IMG/VR virus record: IMGVR_UViG_3300032046_000248
Span: 1-21,627 of that record
Direction: 5' to 3' (one strand)
Origin: a virus
DNA: 21,627 nucleotides
The notes under the pieces were generated by a model. That model ran no database searches. It had not been told where the DNA came from and saw only the letters and a list, made by a program, of their open reading frames with translations. Within the stretch, counting starts at the first letter, position 1; the number at the start of each line of letters is the position of its first letter. Below, piece after piece: positions 5,183-15,734 of this stretch. The position numbers were made by a program, and so were the translations under genes.

Positions 5183-5761
5183 ATGCCATATAAAGATACT
5201 GGTAAAGCAAAAGAATATCAGAGAAAGTATCAACATGATTACCATGTAAGAAATAGGGATAATCCTGACTATATTGCAAAGAGCAATAATATATTTGAAG
5301 GAGGACTAATGCCAGTATACAGTAAAATTAAGGGGAATATTTTTGAACGGGAAGCAGTAAACATGCTCACAGAACTAATACCTGGAAGTAAGTGGAAGAG
5401 AGTTCCTACCAGTGGTGCTATTGGAACACGCATGGAGATACCCCTTCTATTCTCTGACTTGATTGGGGAGATAAAGGATTTTCCTAAAAGAATGAGAGGA
5501 GAAGCGAAGGCAGGTTACGGAGGTGCTAAACAATTTACCCTAAAGAAGGAATGGCTGGATAAGATACTAATGGAAGCCAAGAATACCTACTCAGTACCCT
5601 TCCTTATAGGTAAATTTTCAGGGGCTAGAGATGGTAGCAGAGTATTTGTAGCGTTGGATGTACATGTATTTGCTACACTTGTGAATCAGATAACAGATTT
5701 GCAGAGGAGATTGGATGAAGAAACCGAGAAGGTGGAACACTATCAGAAAGAACCTCTCTAA
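5183..5761 (+). CDS. PD-(D/E)XK nuclease, Holliday-junction-resolvase-like
   Basis: 192 aa. The core (about 45-185) has the layout of archaeal-type or phage resolvases: GNIFEREAVNML helix, KRVPTSGA strand, acidic DLIGEI, then GEAKAG as the E-x-K catalytic strand (about 108-113), a helix with WLDKILMEAK and a VPFLIGKF strand. It would cut branched DNA made during recombination, fitting its place after recA and dnaB. The first 42 residues are a basic PYKDTGKAKEYQRKY type tail found at the front of various phage nucleases. A second in-frame ATG at 5309 has a much stronger ribosome site (AAGGAGG), so a shorter 150-aa form starting MPVYSKIK may be the main product. Confidence 0.75.
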   Translation: MPYKDTGKAKEYQRKYQHDYHVRNRDNPDYIAKSNNIFEGGLMPVYSKIKGNIFEREAVNMLTELIPGSKWKRVPTSGAIGTRMEIPLLFSDLIGEIKDFPKRMRGEAKAGYGGAKQFTLKKEWLDKILMEAKNTYSVPFLIGKFSGARDGSRVFVALDVHVFATLVNQITDLQRRLDEETEKVEHYQKEPL

Positions 5762-6182
5762 ACTCCTGAACATAAGCCAAGACGTACTTGACTTTCTATC
5801 AAACTATGATATAATGTTGGCAGGTGTATCGGGTTCTTCCATAAAGGATATTAGTATAAGCCTTGATGTAACCGAGATAGATGTAAGAAAGACATTGTTA
5901 GATAACATTGGAATCTATTGTAATAATTGGGATGGATTTGATGAATCTAGCGATATAAACCCTTACTTTGTATTTAGAACAATGGTAAAAACGCTAGGGA
6001 AAGTACCTTCGGACGAGGAGTTCTCTGATGAGATGCAACGAATGACTGGAGATGCCTCATTCTTAGGTGAAGATTATAAGCAGATTTACCAAGTCATATC
6101 AATATTCAGTACCTTACGTTACAAATACTTATCAAAGTATAGAAAGGAAGATTATGGAAATTACCTCAGCAGAAATACTTAA
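5715..6182 (+). CDS. Hypothetical protein, possible HTH
   Basis: 155 aa, beginning inside the end of the nuclease gene. No family recognised. The stretch SGSSIKDISISLDVTEIDVRK (about 40-60) could be a helix-turn-helix. The start is uncertain: no strong ribosome site precedes 5715, and a later ATG (5814) exists. It overlaps the well-marked start of the next gene at 6154. Confidence 0.6.
   Translation: MKKPRRWNTIRKNLSKLLNISQDVLDFLSNYDIMLAGVSGSSIKDISISLDVTEIDVRKTLLDNIGIYCNNWDGFDESSDINPYFVFRTMVKTLGKVPSDEEFSDEMQRMTGDASFLGEDYKQIYQVISIFSTLRYKYLSKYRKEDYGNYLSRNT
5788..5815 (+). promoter_or_regulatory. Possible internal sigma70 promoter
   Basis: TTGACT at 5788, a 16-nt spacer and TATAAT at 5810 lie inside a coding region. 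The match is good, but the bases also encode DFLSNYDI, so it may be chance. Confidence 0.3.
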
Positions 6183-6528
6183 AAAATTACCCGACTTCAG
6201 TGACCTTGTTGGTATCACAGATGATATAGCAAGAGTTATTATCAGGAAGCTCACTCTGGAAAAAGAGGTAAAGGTTTGGGAGTCAAAGATTATAAAAGAA
6301 TCCATGACAAATCCCGCTCGCTTTATTGATAACAAAATTCCCTCAGTAGCTTTCATAGAAAAAGCCTACCTCTATACAGGATTTGATGGGGAGGTTCTTC
6401 CAGCAAGGGAAGAATTGATTTCAGTTACTGCCGAACTGGAAAGACTCAAGTCAAGATTAGACTTATATAAAGAATTCCTCAGCATGTGGAGAAGTTTGAA
6501 CGCATCGGAAAGGGCTGTAAATGCCTGA
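6154..6528 (+). CDS. Hypothetical protein, 124 aa
   Basis: Starts MEITSAEILKK at an ATG 5-7 nt after AAGGAAG, a far better site than the earlier in-frame ATG at 6067 inside the upstream gene. Largely helical with a C-terminal coiled-coil-like stretch (TAELERLKSRLDLYKEFL). Its TGA stop overlaps the next start (6521). No function can be read from it; the setting is DNA metabolism. Confidence 0.7.
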   Translation: MEITSAEILKKLPDFSDLVGITDDIARVIIRKLTLEKEVKVWESKIIKESMTNPARFIDNKIPSVAFIEKAYLYTGFDGEVLPAREELISVTAELERLKSRLDLYKEFLSMWRSLNASERAVNA

Positions 6529-11242: not shown

Positions 11243-12667
11243 ATGAGGACTAACAGTTTTCTAAACGCACTACAGACTAGAGATGCTCTTACTGAGAATG
11301 ATATGGTAACTCATTCTACCTCAGGTAGCAGGGTTCTAGATTTGTTCTATGGTATGGGTGGGTCTCGTCAGTTGAATGAGGCCAGAATCGCAGGTATGTT
11401 CTCACAGGCTTTTATTGAGAACAGACTTCTAGCTACCAAGGCATTGTTCTATAACAGGGACGTGCGTGGTGGACAGGGAGAGAGACGCTCATTCAGAATT
11501 ATGTTTGAGTATCTATGCTATGATCATCCAGAGGTAGCAATCAAGAACATCCCTAACGTACCCTTCTACGGAAGATGGGACGACTTGTTCAATGCACTAG
11601 GAACTCCTGCAGAGAAGCCAGCTTTGGACTTTATAGCTACTGCTCTAAAGGCAGGAGACAAGCTATGTGCTAAGTGGATGCCTCGTGAGGGTAAGCACAA
11701 CTCAGCTTGGGCAAAGATTCTTCGTACCCACCTAGAGCTAACCCCAAAGCAGTATCGTAAGCTATTGGCTGGAAACACTCAGGTTATCGAGAATTTTATG
11801 TGCTCAGGGGACTGGGGAAAGATTGACTACAACCACGTTCCTTCTGTAGCTTCCAACAAGTACAGACACGCCTTCGGAAAGCACGACTTCGAGAGGTATT
11901 CAGGATGGTTGGAGAGTCTAAGCAAGCCTGAGTCAGGAAATAAGATTCATGCTGACGCTATCTTCCCACACACCATTGTTCACGGATACCTAAGTAACCA
12001 TTATGGGGGTATCAAGGGACTGGACAAGACCCTAGAGGCTCAGTGGAAGGCTCTACCTAACTATGTTCCAGATGGACACTCATTCATTCCTGTATGTGAT
12101 GTTTCAGGGTCAATGAATGGAGAGCCTATGGAGGTAAGTGTAAGTCTAGGTGTATACCTATCAGAGAGGAACAAGGGACCATTCAAGGATGCGTTCCTAA
12201 CTTTCTCAGGTCGTCCACAGCTACAGATTCTTACCGGAAATACCCTAAGAGGTAAGATTGAGCAGTTGGAGGCTTCACACTGGGATATGAACACCGACCT
12301 AGAGGCAGTATTCAAGTTGATATTGTCAAAGGCTACGTCAGGTTCAGTTCCTGCAGAGGATATGCCTGAGACCATCCTAATCATTTCCGATATGCAGTTC
12401 GACCAGTGTATCGAGAAGCCAAGCAACACGGCTATGGATATGATTAGAAGGCAGTACGAGACCGCTGGTTACAAGATTCCAAACGTGGTGTTCTGGAACG
12501 TAAGAACCTCACAGGGAATTCCTGTAAAGCTAGACGAGCAGGGTACTGCAATCGTAAGCGGATTCTCACCTAGCGTTATGAAGAATCTATTGAGTGGTGA
12601 GATGAGACCTGACGCAGTAATGCTTCGTACCTTGCTAGACCCAAGGTACGAGAGAGTAGTAATCTAA
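11243..12667 (+). CDS. DUF2828 / TROVE-vWA (Ro60-like) RNA-binding protein
   Basis: 474 aa. The N-terminal part (about 25-270) matches the DUF2828/TROVE alpha-helical repeat domain, with the signatures FYNRDVRGGQGERR (69-82), FYGRWDDLF (108-116), KWMPREGK (144-151) and DYNHVPSVASNKYRHAF (195-211). The C-terminal part is a vWA domain with a complete metal site: DVSGS (286-290), Thr351 in DMNTDLEA and Asp383 in IISDMQFD. Ro60 proteins with this pairing form a ring that binds the ends of structured or misfolded RNAs and Y RNAs, and in bacteria can tether RNA-degrading enzymes. The gene follows six small structured RNAs and a tRNA-like RNA. It prefers C/G-ending codons (GAG, AAG, TAC, AAC) more than its neighbours, suggesting high expression. 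Functional equivalence to Ro60 is inferred; DUF2828 itself is poorly characterised. Confidence 0.87.
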   Translation: MRTNSFLNALQTRDALTENDMVTHSTSGSRVLDLFYGMGGSRQLNEARIAGMFSQAFIENRLLATKALFYNRDVRGGQGERRSFRIMFEYLCYDHPEVAIKNIPNVPFYGRWDDLFNALGTPAEKPALDFIATALKAGDKLCAKWMPREGKHNSAWAKILRTHLELTPKQYRKLLAGNTQVIENFMCSGDWGKIDYNHVPSVASNKYRHAFGKHDFERYSGWLESLSKPESGNKIHADAIFPHTIVHGYLSNHYGGIKGLDKTLEAQWKALPNYVPDGHSFIPVCDVSGSMNGEPMEVSVSLGVYLSERNKGPFKDAFLTFSGRPQLQILTGNTLRGKIEQLEASHWDMNTDLEAVFKLILSKATSGSVPAEDMPETILIISDMQFDQCIEKPSNTAMDMIRRQYETAGYKIPNVVFWNVRTSQGIPVKLDEQGTAIVSGFSPSVMKNLLSGEMRPDAVMLRTLLDPRYERVVI

Positions 12668-13490: not shown

Positions 13491-13561
13491 GCTTTGGTAG
13501 CTCAAAGGCAGAGCGAGTGTCTCTAAAACACTTTATAGGGGTTCAATTCCCCTTCAAAGCG
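13491..13561 (+). tRNA. Amber suppressor tRNA, anticodon CTA
   Basis: Acceptor GCTTTGG/TCAAAGC, D-stem GCTC/GAGC, anticodon stem AGTGT/ACACT with loop CTCTAAA, T-arm AGGGG-TTCAATT-CCCCT, discriminator G. Loop positions 34-36 are CTA, which reads the stop codon TAG. GTCTCTAAAAC in this arm differs by one base from GTCTCCAAAAC of the window's tRNA-Trp, and both have G73, so it may derive from tRNA-Trp. In E. coli, tRNA-Trp mutated to CUA (Su+7) is charged mainly with Gln. The amino acid inserted here cannot be read from sequence. Confidence 0.92.
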
Positions 13562-13572
13562 CACATCTTTTT

Positions 13573-13582
13573 GAAAGGAGGT
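13573..13582 (+). promoter_or_regulatory. Near-perfect ribosome site before ATG-TAG
   Basis: GAAAGGAGGT lies 5 nt before the ATG at 13588, the strongest Shine-Dalgarno match noted in the window, yet the second codon is TAG. It is also exactly complementary to ACCTCCTTTC in the leader RNA at 10202-10211. Confidence 0.7.
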
Positions 13583-13587
13583 ACACC

Positions 13588-13617
13588 ATGTAGACAGATA
13601 AATCTCCACCATCCTGA
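13588..13617 (+). CDS. ATG-TAG minigene (9-codon peptide if TAG is suppressed)
   Basis: ATG at 13588 is followed at once by TAG (13591). If TAG is read by the suppressor tRNA encoded 27 nt upstream, translation runs M-X-T-D-K-S-P-P-S and stops at TGA (13615-13617). Without suppression the ribosome stops after one codon. Minigenes of two codons in phage lambda (bar) cause peptidyl-tRNA drop-off and are relieved by peptidyl-tRNA hydrolase. The ATG-TAG start is repeated in the Pth2-like gene at 14046. The role is inferred; it could be a sensor or leader controlling the gene at 13667. Confidence 0.45.
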
Positions 13618-13666
13618 TTATATTTTATCCGACTATCATATATAAAATATAAAAAGGAGAAACAAA

Positions 13667-14056
13667 ATGAATACACTAAGTAAAGAATTTACGTTAGGAA
13701 CATTTTTTGGTGAAGACCCTGAGAACTATACAAAACTTCGTAAGCAGTGGTCTAAGATGGTAAACTCAGACACCAAAGATGAATTAACAATGGCACACCA
13801 CATCCTCTATCTTATCTTGATAGGTAAGAATTGGAAGAAAGCAGTAACCCTTCCTACAAGTAAAAATAAGTTAGCGAATGGTTACAAGCCCCACATTATT
13901 GATGTGGCAGAAAGATGGAACGGTACTTTTACAAAGAACAAAATTCTATCTGCCTTCGAGGGTGTAGTAACGCCAGAGATGTATGATAACGCAGGAAAAG
14001 TAACCAACCTCGATATGTCTGAGGATGCCTACAAGGACTTGAACAATGTAGACTAA
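13667..14056 (+). CDS. Hypothetical protein, 129 aa
   Basis: Strong AAAAAGGAG site before the ATG. Soluble, helical, Lys/Asn-rich; no recognised motif (it begins MNTLSKEFTLGTFFGEDPENY). Its last 11 bases overlap the ATG-TAG start of the Pth2-like gene, so the two are probably translationally coupled. The 76-nt region before it (13591-13666) is AT-rich and holds the minigene's remaining codons. Confidence 0.75.
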   Translation: MNTLSKEFTLGTFFGEDPENYTKLRKQWSKMVNSDTKDELTMAHHILYLILIGKNWKKAVTLPTSKNKLANGYKPHIIDVAERWNGTFTKNKILSAFEGVVTPEMYDNAGKVTNLDMSEDAYKDLNNVD

Positions 14057-14369
14057 TAAATATTCCTACGTTTTTGTTCGTGATGATTTACCAAACACAG
14101 TAAAACTTGTACAGGCTAGTCATGCTTGTATGGAGATGGGTTTTGTAACAGATGCACCAGAAGAGCAGACGTTCTTAGTGGCACTGTCCGTAAAGAATGA
14201 AGCAGGTTTGATAAAAGTTTCAGAACTCCTAGAACAGCAGGAGATAAAGTTCAAGATGTTTTATGAACCTGACTACAATTACGGGTACACAGCACTCTGT
14301 ACAGAACCAGTTGATTTTGGAAAATACACGCTTTTCGATAGATACAATTTGGTAAAGATTGGCTCTTGA
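14046..14369 (+). CDS. Peptidyl-tRNA hydrolase 2-like protein with TAG as codon 2
   Basis: Pth2 enzymes free amino acids or peptides from tRNA that has dropped off the ribosome. Reading from 14046 gives M-(TAG)-TNKYSYVFVRDDLPNTVKLVQASHACMEMG, which matches the Pth2 first strand and catalytic helix (VRxDL...QxxHA), and later FKMFYEPDYNYGYTALCTEP. The only upstream in-frame start is ATG 14046, preceded by AAGGA, and its next codon is TAG. The later ATG at 14130 would remove the whole conserved N-terminus. So the gene appears to need the amber suppressor at 13491. Total 107 residues; the stop is TGA, which overlaps the promoter at 14366. A sequencing error or pseudogene is the main alternative. 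Confidence 0.72.
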
Positions 14370-15270: not shown

Positions 15271-15281
15271 CAAGGATGTAA

Positions 15282-15734
15282 ATGGAAACCGGAACTGAAA
15301 AGAAAGAACGATTACTTGGTGAGTCCTACGGGGCCGCTACATCCAGACTAAGGAAAGAAGTACTGTTCCAGTTACTTGTAAATCAAGGACTGAACGTATG
15401 CTTTCAATGTGGAAAAGAAATAGAAACTGCTGGTGAAGTTTCCATAGAACATAAGAGACCTTGGATGTCAGCGGAGAATCCAAAAGAAGCTTTCTATGAC
15501 TTGGATAACATAGCCATCTCGCACTTGAGCTGTAACGTGAGAGCAGGAAACCACAAGGTTCCTCGTCCAAACAATAGAGGAGAACTTAATGGAAGTTCAA
15601 AGCTAACTTGGAAAGATGTAACTGAGATAAGACAGAAACTAATAGAGGGAGTATCCCTAGCAACTCTTTCAGAAGAGTATGGGGTTACAGAGAGAACCCT
15701 CCGGCTCATTAAAAACTCAGATATTTGGAAGTAA
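15282..15734 (+). CDS. HNH endonuclease with C-terminal HTH
   Basis: 150 aa. A zinc-bound HNH core: CFQC (40-43), SIEHKRP (54-60, catalytic His57), LDNIAISHLSC (74-84). The last 45 residues (GSSKLTWKDVTEIRQKL...SLATLSEEYGVTERTLRLI) are a DNA-binding helix-turn-helix often attached to free-standing homing endonucleases. It lies inside the tRNA cluster, 11 nt after tRNA-Asn and 2 nt before tRNA-Glu, so tRNA genes may be its target and home. No group I intron is seen around it. Confidence 0.85.
   Translation: METGTEKKERLLGESYGAATSRLRKEVLFQLLVNQGLNVCFQCGKEIETAGEVSIEHKRPWMSAENPKEAFYDLDNIAISHLSCNVRAGNHKVPRPNNRGELNGSSKLTWKDVTEIRQKLIEGVSLATLSEEYGVTERTLRLIKNSDIWK

Follow-up and report, generated by a model that had tools for sequence, protein, structure and literature searches.

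Predicted suppressor-gated Pth2 genes in phages and a probable second copy of the blocked start at an ATG-TAG site

Phage suppressor tRNAs, genome-wide recoding of TAG, and viral peptidyl-tRNA hydrolases are already known, as is a synthetic circuit built around an amber codon at the start of a gene. The synthetic circuit is a feedforward 'leak dampener', in which an amber codon lies directly 3' of the start codon and a suppressor tRNA is co-expressed (PMC7969014). Stop-codon recoding in code 15 phages was described by Borges et al. 2022, as cited in the relevant passages of PMC10879173 (see also PMC11210395). The viral and phage peptidyl-tRNA hydrolases of PMC12487901 and the jumbo-phage PTH2 of PMC7824862 belong to the same enzyme family as the gene described here; in the passages of these papers that bear on the subject, suppressor tRNAs and a stop codon within the gene both go unmentioned, and those of PMC12487901 cite minigenes. 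A target for phage suppressor tRNAs has been sought twice, by the authors describing XacN1 (PMC5852040) and by those describing Summit (PMC9022506), and neither group found one. A stop-blocked phage Pth2 is undescribed in the literature that we searched, with subscription papers and preprints mostly outside that search.

Here we analyzed a 21.6-kb virus record (21,627 nt, IMGVR_UViG_3300032046_000248), the whole of which is referred to as the window. It has 27 tRNAs by our count. An amber suppressor tRNA with anticodon CTA (13491–13562) is followed by a Pth2-like peptidyl-tRNA hydrolase gene (14046–14369) whose codon 2 is TAG; both are on the plus strand, as are all features described below that lie between them. 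The tRNA was called by ARAGORN, which prints the label 'Pyl' for every CTA anticodon, and scores 64.5 bits as an Rfam tRNA, with no ribozyme or further RNA family adjoining it in Rfam. As in the leak dampener, the amber codon stands right after the start codon, where a suppressor would unlock it; here this is known from sequence. Unlike that engineered circuit, the arrangement in the window is natural, and the gated gene is a peptidyl-tRNA hydrolase. With code 15 phages, as the relevant passages describe them, the window shares a phage CTA suppressor tRNA, a decoding of UAG that is predicted here, and a proposed timing of gene expression. Those phages, however, recode TAG genome-wide, whereas the window has the standard genetic code, with a block at the start of a single, specific gene. 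TAG terminates five window genes, including those of DNA polymerase and of the RecA-like and DnaB-like proteins, and code 15 was therefore rejected for the window. The Pth2 gene is the only one found within the window to need TAG to be decoded.

The tRNA array of the window also contains a DUF2828/DUF7788 gene (11243–12667; PHROG 'RNA-binding protein'), which we take to be TROVE/Ro60-like. Relatives of this gene occur in loci L052 and L053, which have 15 and 23 tRNA/tmRNA genes, respectively, and neither a suppressor tRNA nor a Pth2 gene in the stretch examined. The relative in L053 is at 5938–6339, and the tRNA array of this locus has a permuted-type tmRNA call (tmRNA*). Elsewhere in the window, an ATG-TAA-ATG (15276–15287) lies directly 3' of a tRNA-Asn and just 5' of an HNH gene, probably by chance.

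The 14046 frame, when read through its TAG, is a Pth2 by fold prediction, and has no alternative start codon between the TAG and the Pth2 fold. The PF01981 profile gives E 0.13 for the window protein alone, below the cut-off, and is matched by 21 of 33 aligned relatives (best 1.7e-6). A profile search with the Pth2 family reaches solved Pth2 structures. The AlphaFold model of the protein has a pLDDT of 91.9, and the best 14 PDB matches in a fold search are all Pth2 structures (TM up to 0.79).

Pth2 genes with a comparable start are widespread in phages. A tblastn search of annotated phages yielded 25 records, and profile scans of IMG/VR yielded 35 and 53 loci. Once near-duplicates had been removed by hand, 71 Pth2 loci were tabulated, which share ancestry and are not all independent, and several of whose contigs are incomplete pieces of a genome. 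An early stop is present as TAG at codons 2–9 in 53 of these loci, as TGA in one, and as TAA in none, while the remaining 17 have no clear early stop. Since TAG is the rarest stop triplet in the Pth2 loci (22% of stop triplets), its excess at this position goes beyond chance, with P ~4e-15 even for 25 independent lineages (a roughly estimated number). The Pth2 frame begins with ATG, zero to two codons, and TAG, mostly with a Shine-Dalgarno (SD) sequence, in ME3, CBB, GAP32, XbC2, Kaldavass, BF, SNUABM_19, and Arash, and likewise in three metagenomic huge phages. The stop lies directly 3' of the SD-ATG, mostly with no further ATG ahead of the Pth2 fold. In all blocked genes the SD-ATG 5' of the stop and the fold 3' of it share one frame, which rules out a frameshift of the prfB type at the stop. 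In the annotations, several of these genes begin at an internal start codon or are missing. The position of the stop varies from codon 2 to codon 9, and the suppressor tRNAs have very different sequences, so it seems to be the stop itself that matters, and not the residue inserted there.

A profile search of genome contigs found one Saprospiraceae contig in which Pth2 starts MK-TAG and a suppressor tRNA lies 18 nt upstream. In locus L026, an ATG immediately follows the early TAG. In cluster C mycobacteriophages (Alice), the start is ATG-TAG-GTG and the SD is better placed for the GTG, such that the block may be relaxed in this group. In mycobacteriophages Alice and IkeLoa (L194:3968–4348 and L198), a CTA suppressor tRNA lies ~250 nt 3' of the Pth2 gene; a search with the mycobacteriophage Pth2 matched 158 Mycobacterium phage records, which offer a tractable test system. 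The contig of L013 and some others may use TAG as sense throughout. The Pth2 N-terminus in L031 (4060–4095) has two TAGs (MRPFQ-TAG-TKEEYG-TAG-DQHF), and in L027 the Pth2 TAG doubles as the stop codon of an in-frame ORF upstream (167 aa; 5497–6000), so that read-through would give a fusion protein. Open frames that begin with an SD-ATG and an early TAG also occur near Pth2 or the suppressor tRNA at L119:7793–8254 (150 codons), L141:6654–7043 (120 codons), and L125:5274–5531 (78 codons), and are possible further suppressor-gated genes.

In many loci the Pth2 gene adjoins a gene for an HD-domain protein, and in others the two are fused. The HD gene itself is blocked in some phages, by TAG in L121 (MT-TAG-VNFDKLEQP) as against TGA in L120 (MS-TGA-VNYALLEEP). 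Among HD-Pth2 fusions, an early TAG precedes the usual start in XacN1 and CM1 (both MK-TAG), L022 (MNLA-TAG), and L038 (MSFT-TAG); the fused part seems open in these four, and the frame extends upstream to the TAG, with the XacN1 fusion gene starting MK-TAG-T. A different placement is seen in six Mimasvirus/Eneladusvirus sequences (L005, L006, L007, L008, L010, and L021), in which an in-frame internal TAG (ELDTG-TAG-GD or ELDSG-TAG-GD, at about 3440 or 6440 in the locus) splits the annotated HD gene 3' of Pth2. An internal in-frame TAG (DLPP-TAG-IYE) likewise splits the annotated HD gene 3' of Pth2 in L017 and L018.

Of the 53 early-TAG loci, 48 have a CTA suppressor tRNA on their record. It falls inside the fetched locus in 36, and 12 more were elsewhere on the record or missed by ARAGORN (LR756511, CBB, XbC2, L025, BF, XacN1, L121, L126, L127, L132, L022, and CM1), that of XacN1 being counted from its description (PMC5852040). 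In L126, the suppressor lies just 3' of Pth2, was missed by ARAGORN, and is the sole tRNA found in 56 kb. No suppressor tRNA was found in five early-TAG records (L026, L038, L049, L051, and L128), some of which are fragments. CTA tRNAs are less frequent in loci without an early stop (about 10 of 17; Fisher p 0.006, for loci that are not fully independent); their presence there indicates that the tRNA has other uses or that the block can be lost. The codon and the anticodon also change together. The Pth2 stop in L033 is TGA, and its 67.8-kb contig has a single tRNA, with anticodon TCA. The L120 contig, with its TGA-blocked HD gene, has a TCA tRNA as well, and no CTA tRNA was found on it. A TCA tRNA is thus present in both TGA cases and was seen in none of the TAG cases examined (p 0.0007). 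These two switches are the strongest evidence, at the level of sequence, for a pairing of stop and suppressor. The arrangement, its conservation, and the matching of codon to anticodon are direct observations, and the window and most of the 71 loci have the two sequence marks of a suppressor-gated gene, namely an early stop in an otherwise open gene and a cognate tRNA in the genome. Phages thus appear to keep Pth2, often along with the HD protein, stop-blocked while encoding the tRNA expected to relieve the block.

The window has a second ATG-TAG (ATG at 13588–13590, TAG at 13591–13593), 25 nt 3' of the suppressor tRNA. The initial annotation had described it as a minigene with the strongest ribosome site of the window, and this holds: its SD, GAAAGGAGGT (13573–13582), provides with AAGGAGGT and a 5-nt spacing the longest match (8 nt), and the only one of that length, 5' of any ATG on both window strands. 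Two further claims, that the site lies between the suppressor tRNA (13491–13562) and the Pth2-like gene (14046) and that both starts share eight bases, agree with the coordinates and the sequence, as ATGTAGAC occurs at 13588–13595 and also opens the gene at 14046. Upon decoding of the TAG, the frame (13588–13617) would read M-x-T-D-K-S-P-P-S, followed by TGA. A CTCC at 13604–13607 had been suggested to pair with GGAG of the ribosome site; this is possible (−6.2 kcal/mol), but 158 of 200 shuffled sequences are at least as stable; the pairing is weak, and we rejected this hairpin.

The site could be a chance product: the 3' trailer of the tRNA would then contain, by coincidence, a strong match to an SD just ahead of an ATGTAG. 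Some 17 ATGTAG are expected by chance per window, and the site is known from a single sequence. However, only ~0.02 are expected with an 8-nt SD, and this one falls in the sole interval between the suppressor tRNA and the ATG-TAG gene. It is also part of an imperfect 29-nt direct repeat, which makes a chance origin quite improbable. The left copy (13575–13603) comprises the SD, the ATG-TAG, and 10 nt, and the right copy (14033–14061) is the beginning of the Pth2 gene together with its SD. Aligned in register, SD included, the copies share 22 of 29 positions; they lie 458 bases apart. The binomial tail is 6.6e-8 per position pair and, by our own estimate, of the order of 0.02 over all such pairs within the region.

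Position points the same way. The Pth2 start lies 18, 22, and 35 nt behind the suppressor tRNA in L152, L140, and L104, respectively, and in L118 it is a direct ATG-TAG. The window minigene, at 25 nt, thus occupies the place that the Pth2 start has in other phages. Given this position and the in-register repeat, the ATG-TAG at 13588 probably arose as a duplicate of the blocked Pth2 start, which is the reading that we prefer. In the simplest reading, the start would have been duplicated when an ORF of 129 aa (13667–14056), which lies between the two copies and overlaps the Pth2 start at its 3' end, came between the tRNA and Pth2, leaving one copy of the start at either end of the segment holding this ORF. 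The ORF has no relatives and no family match in protein searches. Taken together, we consider it rather probable that a stop-blocked Pth2 and its cognate tRNA form a module widespread among phages, that the window is an instance of it, and that the blocked start is present there a second time, at 13588.

The initial annotation had instead viewed 13588 as a one-codon ORF that, like lambda bar minigenes, would release peptidyl-tRNA and might belong to a sensor or feedback loop for the level of suppression; in a wider form of this proposal, it would sequester tRNA or sense Pth2 activity. A lambda bar minigene consists of two sense codons and a stop codon behind a strong SD. The window site resembles such minigenes in its very short ORF, strong SD, and link to Pth, but its ATG is directly followed by TAG, and it was rejected as a minigene of this type. 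With TAG as codon 2 the P site would hold fMet-tRNA only, which peptidyl-tRNA hydrolase cleaves poorly. The strong SD and immediate stop do fit the proposal, and it is well known that ribosomes near the start of an ORF lose short peptidyl-tRNAs (PMC10192219). Against it, no similar minigene is present in the other Pth2 loci (about 70): when the Pth2 loci were searched for short frames with an SD of at least 7 nt and TAG within codons 2–5, the window site and one site in L122 were the only matches, the latter apparently unrelated. By this comparison, the conserved element is the blocked start of the Pth2 gene itself, and the minigene is unique to the window among the Pth2 loci compared. A sensor of peptidyl-tRNA drop-off is thus unsupported, and we regard a minigene acting by release or sequestration as very improbable. 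The broader part of the claim, that the site is tied to suppression and Pth2, is supported, and a suppressor-readable stop at the Pth2 start is strongly conserved among phages.

Loss of the ATG-TAG in close relatives that keep the tRNA had been named as evidence against the minigene. Most Pth2 loci do keep the tRNA and have no minigene, which counts in part against the minigene, none of them being a close relative. A DNA search of phages, IMG/VR protein searches with Pth2, ORF 13667, the TROVE-like gene, and the DNA polymerase, and a DNA scan for the pattern AAAGGAGGTN5ATGTAGAC retrieved no close relative of the window phage from the collections, and the history of the minigene therefore cannot be read from relatives. 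Five matches to the pattern were discarded, having neither a tRNA nor Pth2 and looking like coding sequence of other genes, as was L002, the sole match of one IMG/VR protein search, which is a chance peptide.

The 13588 frame might also serve as a suppressor-responsive upstream ORF that controls ORF 13667 and the overlapping Pth2 gene through a hairpin. The hairpin (13612–13658, with arms at 13612–13628 and 13642–13658) covers the SD of ORF 13667–14056, has a predicted stability of −10.4 kcal/mol (z −3.0), and is equaled in stability by 3 of 200 shuffled sequences. Unsuppressed, ribosomes would stop at 13593 and the hairpin would stay closed; with suppression, they would reach the TGA that ends the nonapeptide frame (13615–13617), which lies within the 5' arm, and open the hairpin, so that ORF 13667 and Pth2 are translated. 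The modelled cost of opening the SD falls accordingly, from 5.2 kcal/mol for free RNA to 4.2 with a ribosome at the TAG and 0.5 with one at the TGA, the ribosome footprints in this model being assumed. The hairpin was, however, noticed after the fact, in one AT-rich sequence with no relatives to show covariation. We hold this reading as a tentative one; it is compatible with a duplicated origin of the site. The compound proposal that the suppressor tRNA mainly unlocks the Pth2 (and HD) operon and that 13588 is a suppressor-sensing leader acting through a hairpin in this phage is unlikely.

For the preferred reading, a stop-blocked Pth2 paired with its tRNA, the following circuit can be proposed. 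Ribosomes would start on the Pth2 gene and stop at once until enough charged phage suppressor tRNA is present. A fraction would then read through, Pth2 would be made, and its level would track suppressor activity. Suppression and heavy phage translation may produce stalled or dropped peptidyl-tRNAs that Pth2 would clear, which is the least certain step. If Pth2 is coupled to suppressor activity, its supply would follow the need for it, a logic akin to that of prfB control. Like prfB autoregulation (PMC12421855), the circuit would involve an early in-frame stop, a function in peptide release, and expression that depends on termination efficiency; prfB (RF2) uses frameshifting, whereas the phage Pth2 frame runs on unshifted and needs a tRNA.

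These comparisons bear on the targets of phage suppressor tRNAs. The stop-blocked HD-Pth2 gene is a candidate target of the XacN1 suppressors. A Pth2 target would be readily overlooked, because gene callers either pass over such a gene or place its start beyond the stop. Neither Pth2 nor HD was found in Summit, whose suppressor thus has another target. To our knowledge, a suppressor-gated start is otherwise known only from synthetic biology. If our reading is correct, the Pth2 module would be a natural form of that synthetic circuit, and would explain the mis-annotated Pth2 genes in several phages. For standard-code phages with a puzzling amber suppressor tRNA, Pth2 would be a likely job for such tRNAs, and their role would be directly testable in phages that have laboratory hosts.
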